Below are positions 48,614 to 52,889 of a stretch of 64,000 nucleotides of DNA, piece by piece. The DNA comes from Jiangella asiatica (GTDB lineage Bacteria; Actinomycetota; Actinomycetes; Jiangellales; Jiangellaceae), in NCBI RefSeq assembly GCF_004349065.1, contig NZ_SMKZ01000009.1, positions 62,001 to 126,000 of the forward strand, given 5' to 3'. A program made the translations under genes and the position numbers. Every line of letters starts with the position of its first letter. Position 1 is the first letter of the stretch. The notes under the pieces were generated by a model. That model had not been told where the DNA came from. It saw only the letters and a list, made by a program, of their open reading frames with translations, and made no database searches.

Positions 48614-48840
48614 AAGCTCCAGAGTATGCGGCGGTACCGCGAATGGCCCGGGTTTCCGGGCGTTGTCGGCGTGGTCATGGCCGGAATCGCCTAGATAAGG
48701 GCCAGACTGGCGAAGCCGTAGTGTGAGGTGGATGATGAGATGTCGGAGCCGGGGGGAATGACCCGGGTCCGGCGCTGTGTTGCGCTTGTCAGCCAGTGGC
48801 GCGGGGTGATGGCCGGAAGATGACACCATTGGGGGCCATG

Positions 48841-49137
48841 ATGACCGCACCAGTAGAGATCGAGCGTCCGGAGGCTGCGGAGGTACCGCAGGCCGACGTG
48901 CCCTGGGTCACGGTGGTGTGGAACGATCCGGTGAACCTGATGTCGTACGTCACGTACGTCTTTCAGACATACTTCGCCTATCCGAAGGTCAAGGCCGAGA
49001 AGCTCATGCTCGACGTCCACGAGAAGGGCAAAGCCATCGTGTCCTCGGGCACGCGCGAGGAGATGGAGCGGGACGTGGAGGCCATGCATTCGTATGGTCT
49101 GTGGGCCACGCTGCAGAAGGCGGGGGACCGAGTCTGA
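48841..49137 (+). CDS. clpS: ATP-dependent Clp protease adaptor ClpS
   Basis: A 98-residue adaptor. Core [22 protein letters not shown], then [19 protein letters not shown] and [20 protein letters not shown], carrying the N-degron pocket (Asn-Asp, Met, His). It delivers N-end-rule substrates to ClpC-ClpP. Two ATGs in a row; the second (48841) is 5 bases after GGGGG. The 227 bases upstream hold no gene. Confidence 0.95.
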
Positions 49138-49736
49138 GCACCGCTTTCCGTCGAGCTCGCGGAGGCGTCGTCGCCGCGTCGTTCCACGTCGTCGAGGTCG
49201 AGCTGCTGCGCTCCCTGGTCGGGCAGCTGCTCGAGTTGGTGCGCGACGAGCGCGCCGACACCAAAGCCGGCGACGTGTGGGCGGCTGAGCTGGGGCTGGG
49301 CGACGACGCGCAGTCGCGGCCCACCGACCCGGTGCTGCTGCGGCTGTTCCCCGACGCGTATCGCGAGGACGACGAGGCAGCGTCGGATTTCCGCCGGTTC
49401 ACCGAGCGCGGGCTGCGCGACCGCAAGGCCGCCTCCGCCGCCACCGTGCTGGCGTCGCTGGCCACCGCCGACGGCGCCGCGGCGTCGGCCCGCTCGGCGA
49501 AGTCGCGCGAGAAGTTGCGCATCGAGCTCGACACCGACCAGGCAGAGGCGTGGCTGCGCACCCTCACCGACCTCCGGCTGGCACTTGGCACCCGCCTCGG
49601 CGTGGCGGAGGACGACGAGGACGACTGGCTGGCCCTGGACGAGAACGACCCCCGCCGGCACGTGCACGACGTCTACGACTGGCTCGGCTGGGTCCAGGAG
49701 ACCCTGGTCCGCACCCTCTCCGCCGCCATGGAGTAG
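49134..49736 (+). CDS. DUF2017 family protein
   Basis: A 200-residue protein found next to ClpS throughout actinobacteria; function unknown. Sequence: [21 protein letters not shown] at the N-terminus, [19 protein letters not shown], then a helical C-terminus with [15 protein letters not shown] and [13 protein letters not shown]. No ATG, GTG or TTG lies near the conserved start. CTG at 49134, overlapping the clpS stop (CTGA) and preceded by a GGGGGA site, is the best candidate. GTG at 49101 is the alternative. Confidence 0.85.
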
Positions 49737-49777
49737 GTCCTCGCCGACGCGGGCTGAGCGTGGGCATCTCGCGGCGG

Positions 49778-50431
49778 TCAGGCCTCGCCACGCAGTGCCG
49801 TGGCCAGCCGCTCGGCGGCCTCCACGATGTGCCGGCGGGTGAGCGCCGTCGCCCGCTCCACGTCCCGCGCGGTGACGGCGTCGACGATCGCCACGTGCTC
49901 GGAGTGTGCCAGCTGCCGGTAGCCGCCGACCCGATGGATGGTCTGGTACCGGAACGTCCGGTGCATCAGCGACACCGTCATCTCCAGCAGCCGGGGCAGC
50001 CCGCACGGCTCGATCACGGCGGTGTGTAGCCGGACGTTCAGGCGGGGGAACTCGGCCTCCTCGTCGGCGATCTCCATCTCGGTCAGGATCTCGCGCATCG
50101 CGGCGACCGACCGCTCGTCGTGGCGTGGGATGGCCGCCTCGATGGCGGCGGTCTCCAGCGCGGCGCGGATCACCGCCGTCTCGACGACCTCCGCGGGTGA
50201 CAGCACGGGCACGACGGGTCCGGCGTGCGGCCGGTTCTCCAGCCAGCCCTCGCCGAGCAGCCGGGTGACCGCCTCGCGTACCGGGACCTTGCTGATGCCG
50301 AGATCGGCAGCGACCTGGTCGAGGACCAGGCGCTCGCCGGGTGCCGGCTGTCCGGCGAGGATGCGTTCGCGAAGGTGCTCGTAGACCAGCTCGGTCTTCG
50401 TGCGGTAGGGCAGCTGGTGGCTCGGTGCCAT
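49778..50431 (-). CDS. GntR-family (FCD) regulator
   Basis: A 217-residue regulator. N-terminal winged helix LVLDQVAADLGISKVPVREAVTRLLGEGWL, then an all-helical FCD domain with metal-type residues (RAALETAAIEAAIPRHDE, RLHTAVIEPCGL, HRFRYQ-like FRYQTIHRVG, HVAIVDAVTARD). It is divergent from the aminotransferase-like gene and the antiporter and likely controls them. TATCGGATCTGATCGA repeats in the 109-base gap could be its site. Confidence 0.92.
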   Translation of the reverse strand: MAPSHQLPYRTKTELVYEHLRERILAGQPAPGERLVLDQVAADLGISKVPVREAVTRLLGEGWLENRPHAGPVVPVLSPAEVVETAVIRAALETAAIEAAIPRHDERSVAAMREILTEMEIADEEAEFPRLNVRLHTAVIEPCGLPRLLEMTVSLMHRTFRYQTIHRVGGYRQLAHSEHVAIVDAVTARDVERATALTRRHIVEAAERLATALRGEA

Positions 50432-50461
50432 TGCCGCATCCTTTCATGCCCGCCCGAACAT

Positions 50462-50535
50462 CGTCGATCAGATCCGATCCTCTTGACTGACCGTCGATGG
50501 CAGGACAAGATATCGGATCTGATCGACGATGAGGA
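50462..50535. promoter_or_regulatory. GntR operator candidate (repeated GATCAGATC)
   Basis: The gap between the GntR gene and the aminotransferase-like gene holds TCGTCGATCAGATCCGATCC (50462-50481) and GGATCTGATCGACGA (50516-50530). They are inverted copies of TCGTCGATCAGATC, about 35 bases apart. Such paired inverted sites are typical for looping or dimer-of-dimer binding by GntR repressors. Confidence 0.55.
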
Positions 50536-50540
50536 GAAGC

Positions 50541-51419
50541 ATGGGTCAGCCGCTGATGGTGTATGTCGACGGGTCGATCGTCCCGGCCGAGTCCGCGTCC
50601 GTGTCGGTGTTCGACGCCGGGTTCCAGTCCGGGGACGCCGTCTGGGAGGGGTTGCGGGTCTACGACGGCACCGTGCTCCGGCTCGCCGACCACCTGGACC
50701 GGCTGGAGCATTCGGCGCGTGCGCTGCGCATCGCGCTGCCCGGGACCCGCGCGCAGATCGCCGCCGCCGTCGCCGCGACGCTCGAGGCCAACGGCTTCCG
50801 CCACGACGTCCACGTGCGGCTCATGGTGACCCGCGGCACCCGCTCGACCTCCGGGATGGACCCGCGCAACGCACCGCCGCGCGGCACGCTCGTGGTCGTC
50901 GCCGAACACAAGCCCGTGCCCGAGGTTCCCACGCCGCAGCGGCTGCGCACCGCGAGCATCCGCCGCCCGAGCCCCCAGGTGCTCGACCCCGGCATCCACC
51001 ACGCCAACCAGCTCAACTCCATCGTCGCCCGGCTGGAGGTCTGGGACGACGGTGTCGACGCCGCCCTCATGCTGGACACCGACGGCTTCGTCGCCGAGGT
51101 TGACACCGCCAACATCTTCTGCGTGGCCGACGGCGTCGTGCGCACGCCGTTCGCGACCGCCTGCCTGCACGGCATCACCCGGGCCACCGTCATGGAGCAG
51201 GCGCGCGGTGCCGGGCTCGCGGTCCGGGAGGCACGGCTGTCGTTGTTCGACTTCTACGCCGCCGACGAGGTCTTCGTCACCGGGACCGTGTGCGAGCTCG
51301 TCCCGGTGGTCGAGATCGACGGACGGCGCATCGGCACCGGAGAGCCCGGTCCGATCTGGCGCCAGCTGCTCGACGCCTACCGTGCCCGGGTCTCGCAGGA
51401 GACCGCGGGCCCCCTCTGA
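50541..51419 (+). CDS. class IV aminotransferase-like protein lacking the PLP lysine
   Basis: A 292-residue protein of the branched-chain/D-amino-acid aminotransferase fold. GAGGAG precedes the ATG. The phosphate-binding HGITRATV (210-217), acid Glu186 (FVAEVDTANIF) and GTVCELVPV are present. The segment aligned with the lysine region (xKSLNYLN in homologues) reads IHHANQLN, with His153 at the lysine position; the only Lys in the whole protein is Lys124. Either the chemistry differs or PLP is not bound as Schiff base. First gene of an operon with NhaC. Confidence 0.82.
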   Translation: MGQPLMVYVDGSIVPAESASVSVFDAGFQSGDAVWEGLRVYDGTVLRLADHLDRLEHSARALRIALPGTRAQIAAAVAATLEANGFRHDVHVRLMVTRGTRSTSGMDPRNAPPRGTLVVVAEHKPVPEVPTPQRLRTASIRRPSPQVLDPGIHHANQLNSIVARLEVWDDGVDAALMLDTDGFVAEVDTANIFCVADGVVRTPFATACLHGITRATVMEQARGAGLAVREARLSLFDFYAADEVFVTGTVCELVPVVEIDGRRIGTGEPGPIWRQLLDAYRARVSQETAGPL

Positions 51420-51443
51420 TCCGTACGTCCGAAGGAGTGCGGC

Positions 51444-52889
51444 ATGCAGCCGAACGAGACTGAACAGGAGCGGGTGGCCGGCCCGGCCGGGATCGGATAC
51501 GCGTTGCTCGCGCTGGCGACCGTGGTCGCCGTGCTCGTGCTGGGGCTGGTCGTCGCCGACGCGCCGCTGCCGTTGATGATGGCGGCAGGATTCCTGACGG
51601 CGATCCCGTTCGCCGTCGCCCGCGGCGTTGCCTACGACGAGGTCGAGCGGATCAGCCTCGACATGGTGCGCCGCGGGTTGCAGCCGGTACTGATCTTCGT
51701 CGCCGTGGGTGCGCTGATCTCGTCGTGGATCCTGTCCGGGACGGTTCCCACCATGATCGACCTCGGGCTGCGCATCATCACGCCCAGCCTGTTCCTGCCG
51801 ACGGCGATCATCCTGTGCACCCTGGCCTCTCTGGTCAACGGCACCAACTTCGGCACCGTCGCCACCGTGGGGCTGGCGCTCATGGGGGTGGCGAGCGCCC
51901 TCGACGTGCCGGCGGGGGTCGCCGCTGGCGCCATCATCTGCGGTGCGGTCTTCGGCGACAAGATGTCGCCGCTGTCGGACACGACGGTGATGGCACCGGC
52001 GCTGGCCGGCGCCGGGCTGATCCCGCATATCAGGCACATGATGTGGACCACGGTGCCAGCCATCCTGGTCACCACGGCGATCTTCACCGTGATGGGGCTG
52101 GGCTACGACGACGGGGACGGCGCCACGCAGCAGGTGGAGGAGGTCAGCGCCGCACTGGGTGAGGCCTTCTCGCTCGGCCTGATCCCGCTGCTGCCGCCGC
52201 TGCTGGTCGTGGCGCTGCTGGTCACCCGGCGCCCGGCGTTCCCGTCGATCGCGCTCGGCGCGGTGGCCGGCGCCGTCGTCGCCGTCCTCTATCAGGGGGC
52301 CGGGCTCACGCAGACGCTGGAGGCGATGTGGAACGGCTACACCCCGCCGGAGTCGATGGGCGAGATCGCCGGGCTGCTGTCCGGTGGCGAGACCGGCGGC
52401 GCGCTGAAGATGCTGGGGCTGGCCTCGATCGTGGTGTTCGCGCTGGGCATCGCCGGTGCGCTGCAGGCCGCCGGGGTCCTGCAGGCGTTGCTCGACGCGC
52501 TCACGCCGCGACTGGACACGCCGCGGCGGCTGGTGCCGGCGACGCTCGGAATCACCTTCGTGCTCAACCTGATCGGCGGGGCGGTCAACTTCGCCGTCGC
52601 CATGGGCACCACGCTGCTGCGCCCGATCTACGAGCGCGTCGGTGTGGAGGCGAAGAACCTCTCGCGGGCGACCGAGGACGCCGGCACCACGACCGGGCCG
52701 ATGATCCCGTGGAACGCGACGGCCGTGTTCAGCGCCGGTGCGCTCGGCGTCTCGGTGTCGACCTACCTGCCGTACCTGTACTTCTGCTTCCTGACGCCGC
52801 TGATCTCCCTGTTCTACGGCCTGACGGGGTTCACGATCACGCGCCGGCGGCACCCGTATCCTGAGAACCGTGCTGCGCATCCGTCGTGA
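51444..52889 (+). CDS. NhaC-family Na+/H+ antiporter-like transporter
   Basis: A 481-residue membrane protein with about 11 helices. Family segments: GALISSWILSGTVPTMIDLG, TLASLVNGTNFGTVATVGLAL, GAVFGDKMSPLSDTTVMAPA (conserved GDK.SPLSDTT) and TEDAGTTTGPMIPWNATAVF. NhaC homologues exchange Na+/H+ or amino-acid-like solutes such as malate or lactate. Transcribed with the aminotransferase-like gene and next to a GntR regulator, so it may carry the substrate of that protein. Confidence 0.88.
   Translation: MQPNETEQERVAGPAGIGYALLALATVVAVLVLGLVVADAPLPLMMAAGFLTAIPFAVARGVAYDEVERISLDMVRRGLQPVLIFVAVGALISSWILSGTVPTMIDLGLRIITPSLFLPTAIILCTLASLVNGTNFGTVATVGLALMGVASALDVPAGVAAGAIICGAVFGDKMSPLSDTTVMAPALAGAGLIPHIRHMMWTTVPAILVTTAIFTVMGLGYDDGDGATQQVEEVSAALGEAFSLGLIPLLPPLLVVALLVTRRPAFPSIALGAVAGAVVAVLYQGAGLTQTLEAMWNGYTPPESMGEIAGLLSGGETGGALKMLGLASIVVFALGIAGALQAAGVLQALLDALTPRLDTPRRLVPATLGITFVLNLIGGAVNFAVAMGTTLLRPIYERVGVEAKNLSRATEDAGTTTGPMIPWNATAVFSAGALGVSVSTYLPYLYFCFLTPLISLFYGLTGFTITRRRHPYPENRAAHPS

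Follow-up and report, generated by a model that had tools for sequence, protein, structure and literature searches.

The window that we analysed, a 64,000-nucleotide stretch of a Jiangella asiatica contig (NZ_SMKZ01000009.1), contains a compact three-gene cassette. Its central open reading frame (positions 50541 to 51419, plus strand) is translated into a class IV aminotransferase-like protein of 292 amino acids that carries the sequence IHHANQLN and in which His153 replaces the catalytic lysine, as judged from the translation, the Pfam match, the alignment and a structure model. A ribosome-site-like stretch (GAGGAG; positions 50531 to 50536) is found directly before its ATG at position 50541. 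Divergently oriented to the enzyme gene is that of a GntR/FCD transcription factor (positions 49778 to 50431, minus strand; Pfam FCD, 6.7e-23; GntR, 8.6e-13), and 24 bp past the enzyme gene starts that of an NhaC-family transporter (positions 51444 to 52889, plus strand), whose score against TIGR00931 (385.1 bits) exceeds the cut-off of 370. The NhaC protein had no match among PDB sequences at E <= 0.01, and neither it nor the enzyme was matched by PADLOC. Between the regulatory gene and the enzyme gene we found a perfect inverted repeat with arms of 20 bp (positions 50459 to 50478 and 50512 to 50531) separated by 33 nt; in 500 shuffles of this 109-bp region, the longest perfect repeat measured 12 bp. 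The repeat is a likely operator. Its right arm ends where the ribosome-site-like stretch starts, and this arm could act on the mRNA instead.

On one side the cassette is flanked by an open reading frame (positions 48796 to 49137), which is probably ClpS, and by a DUF2017 gene, and on the other by JAB and ThiS genes. The counterpart of the first open reading frame, DUF2017 and JAB are kept in this order in 10 of the 11 other genomes of the genus, the stretch from the eleventh (L183) being too short to show JAB; ThiS is present in nine of these 10, and the stretch from the remaining one (L179) stops before it. DUF2017 and JAB are spaced 26-1007 bp apart in the 10 genomes vs. 3133 bp here. When the regulator, the enzyme and the transporter were compared by tblastn with the 11 stretches from the genus, no match was obtained, and none of the 11 genomes contains a match to the enzyme at E <= 1e-45. 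In each of the 10 other genomes of the genus that show both borders, the site lacks the cassette. Since neither the stretches nor the genomes yielded matches, the three genes make up a discrete unit that either this species acquired or the others lost; its G+C content does not clearly mark it as foreign. As a separate observation, the length of the gap in question (positions 49736 to 52870, with counterparts in L176-L182 and L184-L186) varies among the other genomes as if this were an insertion-prone site. A small regulated uptake cassette, consisting of the divergent GntR gene and the NhaC gene downstream of the enzyme, had been proposed in the preliminary description; the empty site and the inverted repeat bear this proposal out, and the role of the cassette would be a catabolic one.

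The enzyme matches Pfam PF01063 (Aminotran_4) at 5.4e-50 with 170.8 bits, above the gathering cut-off of 28.5. Its best NCBIfam score is that for NF006185 (branched-chain aminotransferase; BCAT), with 267.1 bits below the cut-off of 363; because proteins of this kind score best as branched-chain aminotransferases, a name taken from family models may be wrong. The AlphaFold2 model (mean pLDDT 87.6; 40-row alignment) superimposes on 5e25_B over 283 residues (Z 35.0, rmsd 1.8), as a fold type IV structure should. VIA-align gave Z values of 33-35 against branched-chain aminotransferases and of 34.7 against 7z79_F, and Foldseek pairs the model with fold type IV enzymes along its length. A working transaminase has its catalytic lysine where the large-domain helix begins; in the model this place is taken by His153, which opens the helix formed by residues 153-168.

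A search of genome contigs with the single protein yielded no relative; relatives were found by an alignment-based search, and the best 80 of 587 were used. By their record titles, these 80 come from Bacteroidota, Pseudomonadota, Planctomycetota, Acidobacteriota, Verrucomicrobiota, Chloroflexota, Bacillota and other phyla. Our alignment comprises 147 rows with one protein per locus, the window protein included; L001, L038-L057, L138 and L139 were omitted as longer stretches or duplicates, and L004 and L005 contributed no row. L005 (G000:C68:185451-185603), a locus in the same genome as the window, is a 51-residue class IV aminotransferase match that lacks the rest of the protein and is possibly a gene remnant. 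Rows were selected either by their likeness to the window protein or by the patterns GDAVWEGL and K[YIV]TSGM[DS]P[RA], so that the conservation of W35, K101, T103, S104 and M106 is partly due to this selection; positions H91, E122, K124, D149, H153 and E186 lie outside the search patterns. Thirty of the 37 lysine-containing rows (36 distinct ones, since L031 and L143 are one gene) stem from the NF006185 search and lean toward BCAT-like proteins.

From R141-R142 to N156 the window protein aligns without a gap to lysine-type relatives such as L031 (IKSLNYLNNIL), and His153 (codon at positions 50997 to 50999, plus strand) falls on the column of the catalytic lysine. Among the 147 rows, which include the best 80 of the 587 contig relatives, this column holds His in 93, Asn in 17 and Lys in 37. 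A second signature accompanies the change: E122 and K124, encoded with H123 at positions 50904 to 50912 (plus strand), are present in each of the 93 His rows and 17 Asn rows (110/110 lysine-less rows among the matches listed), whereas the lysine-type rows have E122 in 0/37 and K124 in 5/37 cases. The window protein, with both of these residues and no lysine at position 153, belongs to the lysine-less clade. W35 (110/110), H91 (109/110) and D149 (110/110) likewise set the lysine-less rows apart from the 37 lysine rows.

The seat of the cofactor is largely kept. According to Table 2 of PMC8320979, R59, I220-T221, T257 and E193 are the phosphate and N1 ligands of the Escherichia coli BCAT; they correspond by alignment to R54, I212-T213, T249 and E186 of the window protein, and R40 of the BCAT corresponds to R39. 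The His rows retain R54 in 93/93, T213 in 92/93 (one Ser) and T249 in 86/93 cases (seven Ser). The pyridine-N acid, Glu186 of the window protein (codon at positions 51096 to 51098, plus strand), is Glu in 93/93 His rows, and the lysine rows have Glu in 29/37 and Asp in 8/37. Q157, the counterpart of BCAT Y164, which contacts O3' of PLP, as well as W35 (F36 in BCAT) and S30 (Y31) suggest that binding of the cofactor may be altered. A cofactor seat that is largely kept, combined with a lysine and a substrate side that were rebuilt and then held constant, suggests from the sequences that the window protein is a working enzyme. The earlier claims of an aminotransferase-like fold that has lost its PLP lysine, of retained PLP phosphate motifs and acidic residue, and of Lys124 as the sole lysine of the translated protein all stand. 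The preliminary description had also asked whether the HHANQLN-type change recurs elsewhere; His occupies the column in most rows and in several phyla, and, as this column lies outside the search patterns, chance is excluded. Within the Asn-type group (L013-L029), the pyridine-N acid is lost as well, with Thr at position 186 in 17/17 rows; judging by these residues, this group may have left PLP chemistry altogether.

A tree was calculated from 59 of the 147 rows, hand-chosen for spread and rooted at the midpoint; 7z79 is not among the rows. All lysine-less rows fall on one side of a branch with a support of 100/96. The Asn type forms a group supported by 100/100, and the His type one supported by 93/81, which is therefore less sure. 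The window protein, L058 and L059 share a branch (100/99), and the remaining His-type rows form its neighbor (100/98). Warnings of long branches were given for L002, L003 and L148, which are on the lysine side. This topology fits a single loss of the lysine, with His and Asn as its two outcomes. In one genome (G308), we observed two copies of an IHSCN-type lysine-less protein (L010 and L033).

Counting the window's own genome, a match to the window protein at E <= 1e-60 was obtained in 28 of 396 genomes from the phylum, and one at E <= 1e-70 in five of 393 genomes from the class, the other four proteins being 48-50% identical to it. Two proteins from Bacillota MAGs (L058 and L059) are closer, with 64% identity, and among 43 genomes from the phylum of G495, the genome that carries L058, a cut-off of E <= 1e-85 returned just these two. 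Between L058 and L059, dN/dS is 0.085 over 277 codons; this pair is under purifying selection, a statement that holds for the pair and not for the window gene.

The surroundings of these two relatives bear on the substrate. In L058, the genes after that of the enzyme encode a binding protein (SBP_bac_3), a permease and an ABC ATPase, and a GntR/FCD gene is divergent; judged by eye, L059 has the same gene order. L058 also contains, after the GntR gene, a weak GH43-like match (0.00067, below the cut-off). A phmmer comparison (1e-8) of the 100 stretches L038-L137 found, among the matches listed, relatives of the GntR protein solely in L038, L058 and L059, and of NhaC solely in L038, the window's own stretch. 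The NhaC pairing has thus been seen once, and the link to a transporter rests on three loci (the window, L058 and L059). Enzyme and regulator are constant among them and the transporter is swapped, NhaC in the window vs. an ABC importer in L058 and L059. As the ABC importer that takes the place of NhaC next to this enzyme and regulator is of the amino-acid type, the exchange speaks for uptake of an amino compound. The NhaC-family proteins MetT and LysW have been linked to methionine and lysine (PMC3228920, PMC5584792), and the latter paper mentions in addition that a role in pH has been suggested for LysW. Because Na+/H+ exchange gave the NhaC family its name and LysW may act in pH control, the link to a substrate rests largely on L058 and L059.

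Most other lysine-less genes have a different partner. At 65 of the 80 loci (the best 80 of 587), a Sulfotransfer_5 gene (PF19798; identity profile-checked for three representatives) is no more than 200 bp away from the enzyme gene and on its strand; in two it is further off, and in 13 it was not seen. These 13 include L058 and L059, as well as L061, L090 and L100, in which the contig ends within ~850 bp upstream. A looser cluster count of 73/80 takes in antisense shadow frames, and 65/80 is the stricter figure. Sulfotransfer_5 adjoins the enzyme gene in 17 of 20 further stretches, the exceptions being the window, the lysine-type L053 and L048 (contig end). Among eight whole genomes, PF19798 was found in 5/5 comparison genomes and in 0/3 of the window branch (two of them MAGs; completeness of the window's own genome, 99.99%), and 0/14 well-known control genomes had a match. 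Designed repeat proteins that phmmer returned as matches to the sulfotransferase-like protein were dismissed as chance matches, because just ~26 residues were covered. In plants, "branched-chain-amino-acid aminotransferase-like" proteins fuse a sulfotransferase-like to an aminotransferase-like part. Our literature search found no function for the aminotransferase-like/sulfotransferase pair.

The reading that we favor, and to which we give close to even chances, is that the window protein is a lysine-independent PLP/PMP enzyme that acts on an imported amino compound in a manner comparable to ColD/E1. The three genes would then constitute a substrate-induced module for uptake and conversion, in which the GntR/FCD protein would repress the divergent enzyme-NhaC operon via the inverted repeat, NhaC would bring in an amino acid or a compound like it, which the enzyme would convert. 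R54, I212-T213, T249 and E186 would seat PLP or PMP non-covalently. As position 153 lacks a lysine, the usual internal aldimine would not form, and the substrate (or PMP that arises from an amino donor) would react directly with the cofactor. His153, aided by H91, E122 and K124, would provide the acid-base chemistry. Lack of the internal aldimine and such a role for His153 would favor a one-way reaction (deamination, elimination/dehydration or half-transamination, as in ColD/E1) over ping-pong transamination.

We consider it unlikely, though worth weighing seriously, that the protein is non-catalytic or does not use PLP, the fold having taken on a new role as a sensor that binds a ligand or as a partner subunit. 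The protein has neither the lysine nor the O3' contact, the Asn-type group lacks the N1 acid too, and the pairing of most collected lysine-less genes with Sulfotransfer_5 is what one might see for a partner subunit. However, E122, K124, E186 and R54 are invariant in the 93 His-type rows, and the lack of a PF19798 match in 3/3 window-branch genomes indicates that the protein is more than a partner of that sulfotransferase-like protein. Since the His type keeps the N1 acid and the phosphate ligands, a non-PLP role looks less likely for it on the grounds of residue conservation.

Also unlikely, and in our view a little less probable, is that the lysine has been relocated, such that PLP is bound as a Schiff base to Lys124 in an ordinary transaminase. 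Lys124 is the only lysine of the window protein and occurs in 110/110 lysine-less rows; it maps, with an alignment uncertainty of ~2 residues, to where the interdomain loop begins (E. coli BCAT, PWGAYLG), a loop that lines the active site in BCATs (PMC8320979, Table 2). Yet E122 is equally invariant and could form a salt bridge with K124, five of the 37 lysine-type rows have Lys in this column too, and the same lysine is found in 7z79, whose depositors made the variant N174K, with a lysine at the old site. Moreover, the interdomain loop is out of the active site in one DAAT (PMC8401098). A decaying or misread gene, that is, a pseudo-enzyme drifting after loss of the lysine or a sequencing error, can be dismissed as barely credible: the lack of matches in the 11 other genomes of the genus would agree with it, but the frame is open behind a ribosome-site-like stretch, the cassette and the inverted repeat are intact, a conserved clade from several phyla with His in 93/147 rows contradicts it, and the sister pair L058/L059 has the low dN/dS given above.

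A wider picture can also be put forward, which we rate at somewhat under even chances. The lysine-less proteins would form an ancient lineage of fold type IV enzymes, spread over several phyla, that dropped the lysine for good and uses His together with a new Glu-x-Lys motif for PLP/PMP chemistry convergent with that of ColD/E1; the window branch would break down an imported amino compound, and the main branch would work with a sulfotransferase, e.g., by eliminating a sulfated hydroxyl. According to general teaching, PLP enzymes require a lysine in the active site, and the natural His-for-Lys exceptions that can be cited are sugar dehydratases of another fold. A His (or Asn) clade present in several phyla makes lysine-free PLP/PMP chemistry directly testable in fold type IV, and the window protein with its single lysine offers a clean test object. 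That relatives across phyla share the swap speaks for a chemistry that is old, functional and as yet unexplored, and against a defective gene; the Sulfotransfer_5 gene next to most collected members suggests a two-enzyme pathway, likewise unexplored.

Of the known systems, the aminotransferase-like protein of Variovorax paradoxus (PDB 7z79; 40-42% identity) has the same fold, has also lost the catalytic lysine and is the only solved lysine-less relative that we found; 9j32 is its deposited N174K variant. E141-H142-K143 of 7z79, counted on the alignment, correspond to E122-H123-K124 of the window protein, but 7z79 has Asn174 at the lysine site, where the window protein has His, and Ser at the position of the N1 acid, where the window protein has Glu. 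A lysine-less fold type IV protein is therefore already known to structural biologists. Our literature search, whose coverage excluded most subscription journals, found no paper on 7z79 or the lysine-less fold type IV clade, no substrate, product or cofactor binding for any member, and no description of the His-type clade, the E-x-K signature, the Sulfotransfer_5 pairing or the transporter-linked branch. The Sulfotransfer_5-linked proteins (most of L039-L052, L054-L057 and L060-L137) share H153 or N153, E122, K124 and one side of the tree with the window protein, and differ from it in that PF19798 adjoins them, which has no match in the three window-branch genomes. BCATs (E. coli IlvE; the archaeal 5e25 and 5mqz; NF006185) resemble the window protein in fold, phosphate ligands and N1 acid, whereas their catalytic Lys, Y164, F36, Y31 and Y95 are replaced in it by H153, Q157, W35, S30 and H91. 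ColD, E1 and SpnQ belong to fold type I and the window enzyme to fold type IV, so that it is not an enzyme of the ColD/E1 type by fold. These three are aminotransferase-related PLP/PMP sugar 3-dehydratases in which a His in place of the catalytic lysine serves as acid and base (PMC8987622). The window protein shares this replacement through H153; in contrast to it, ColD, E1 and SpnQ act on nucleotide-sugar substrates, and E1 and SpnQ hold an iron-sulfur cluster (PMC8987622).
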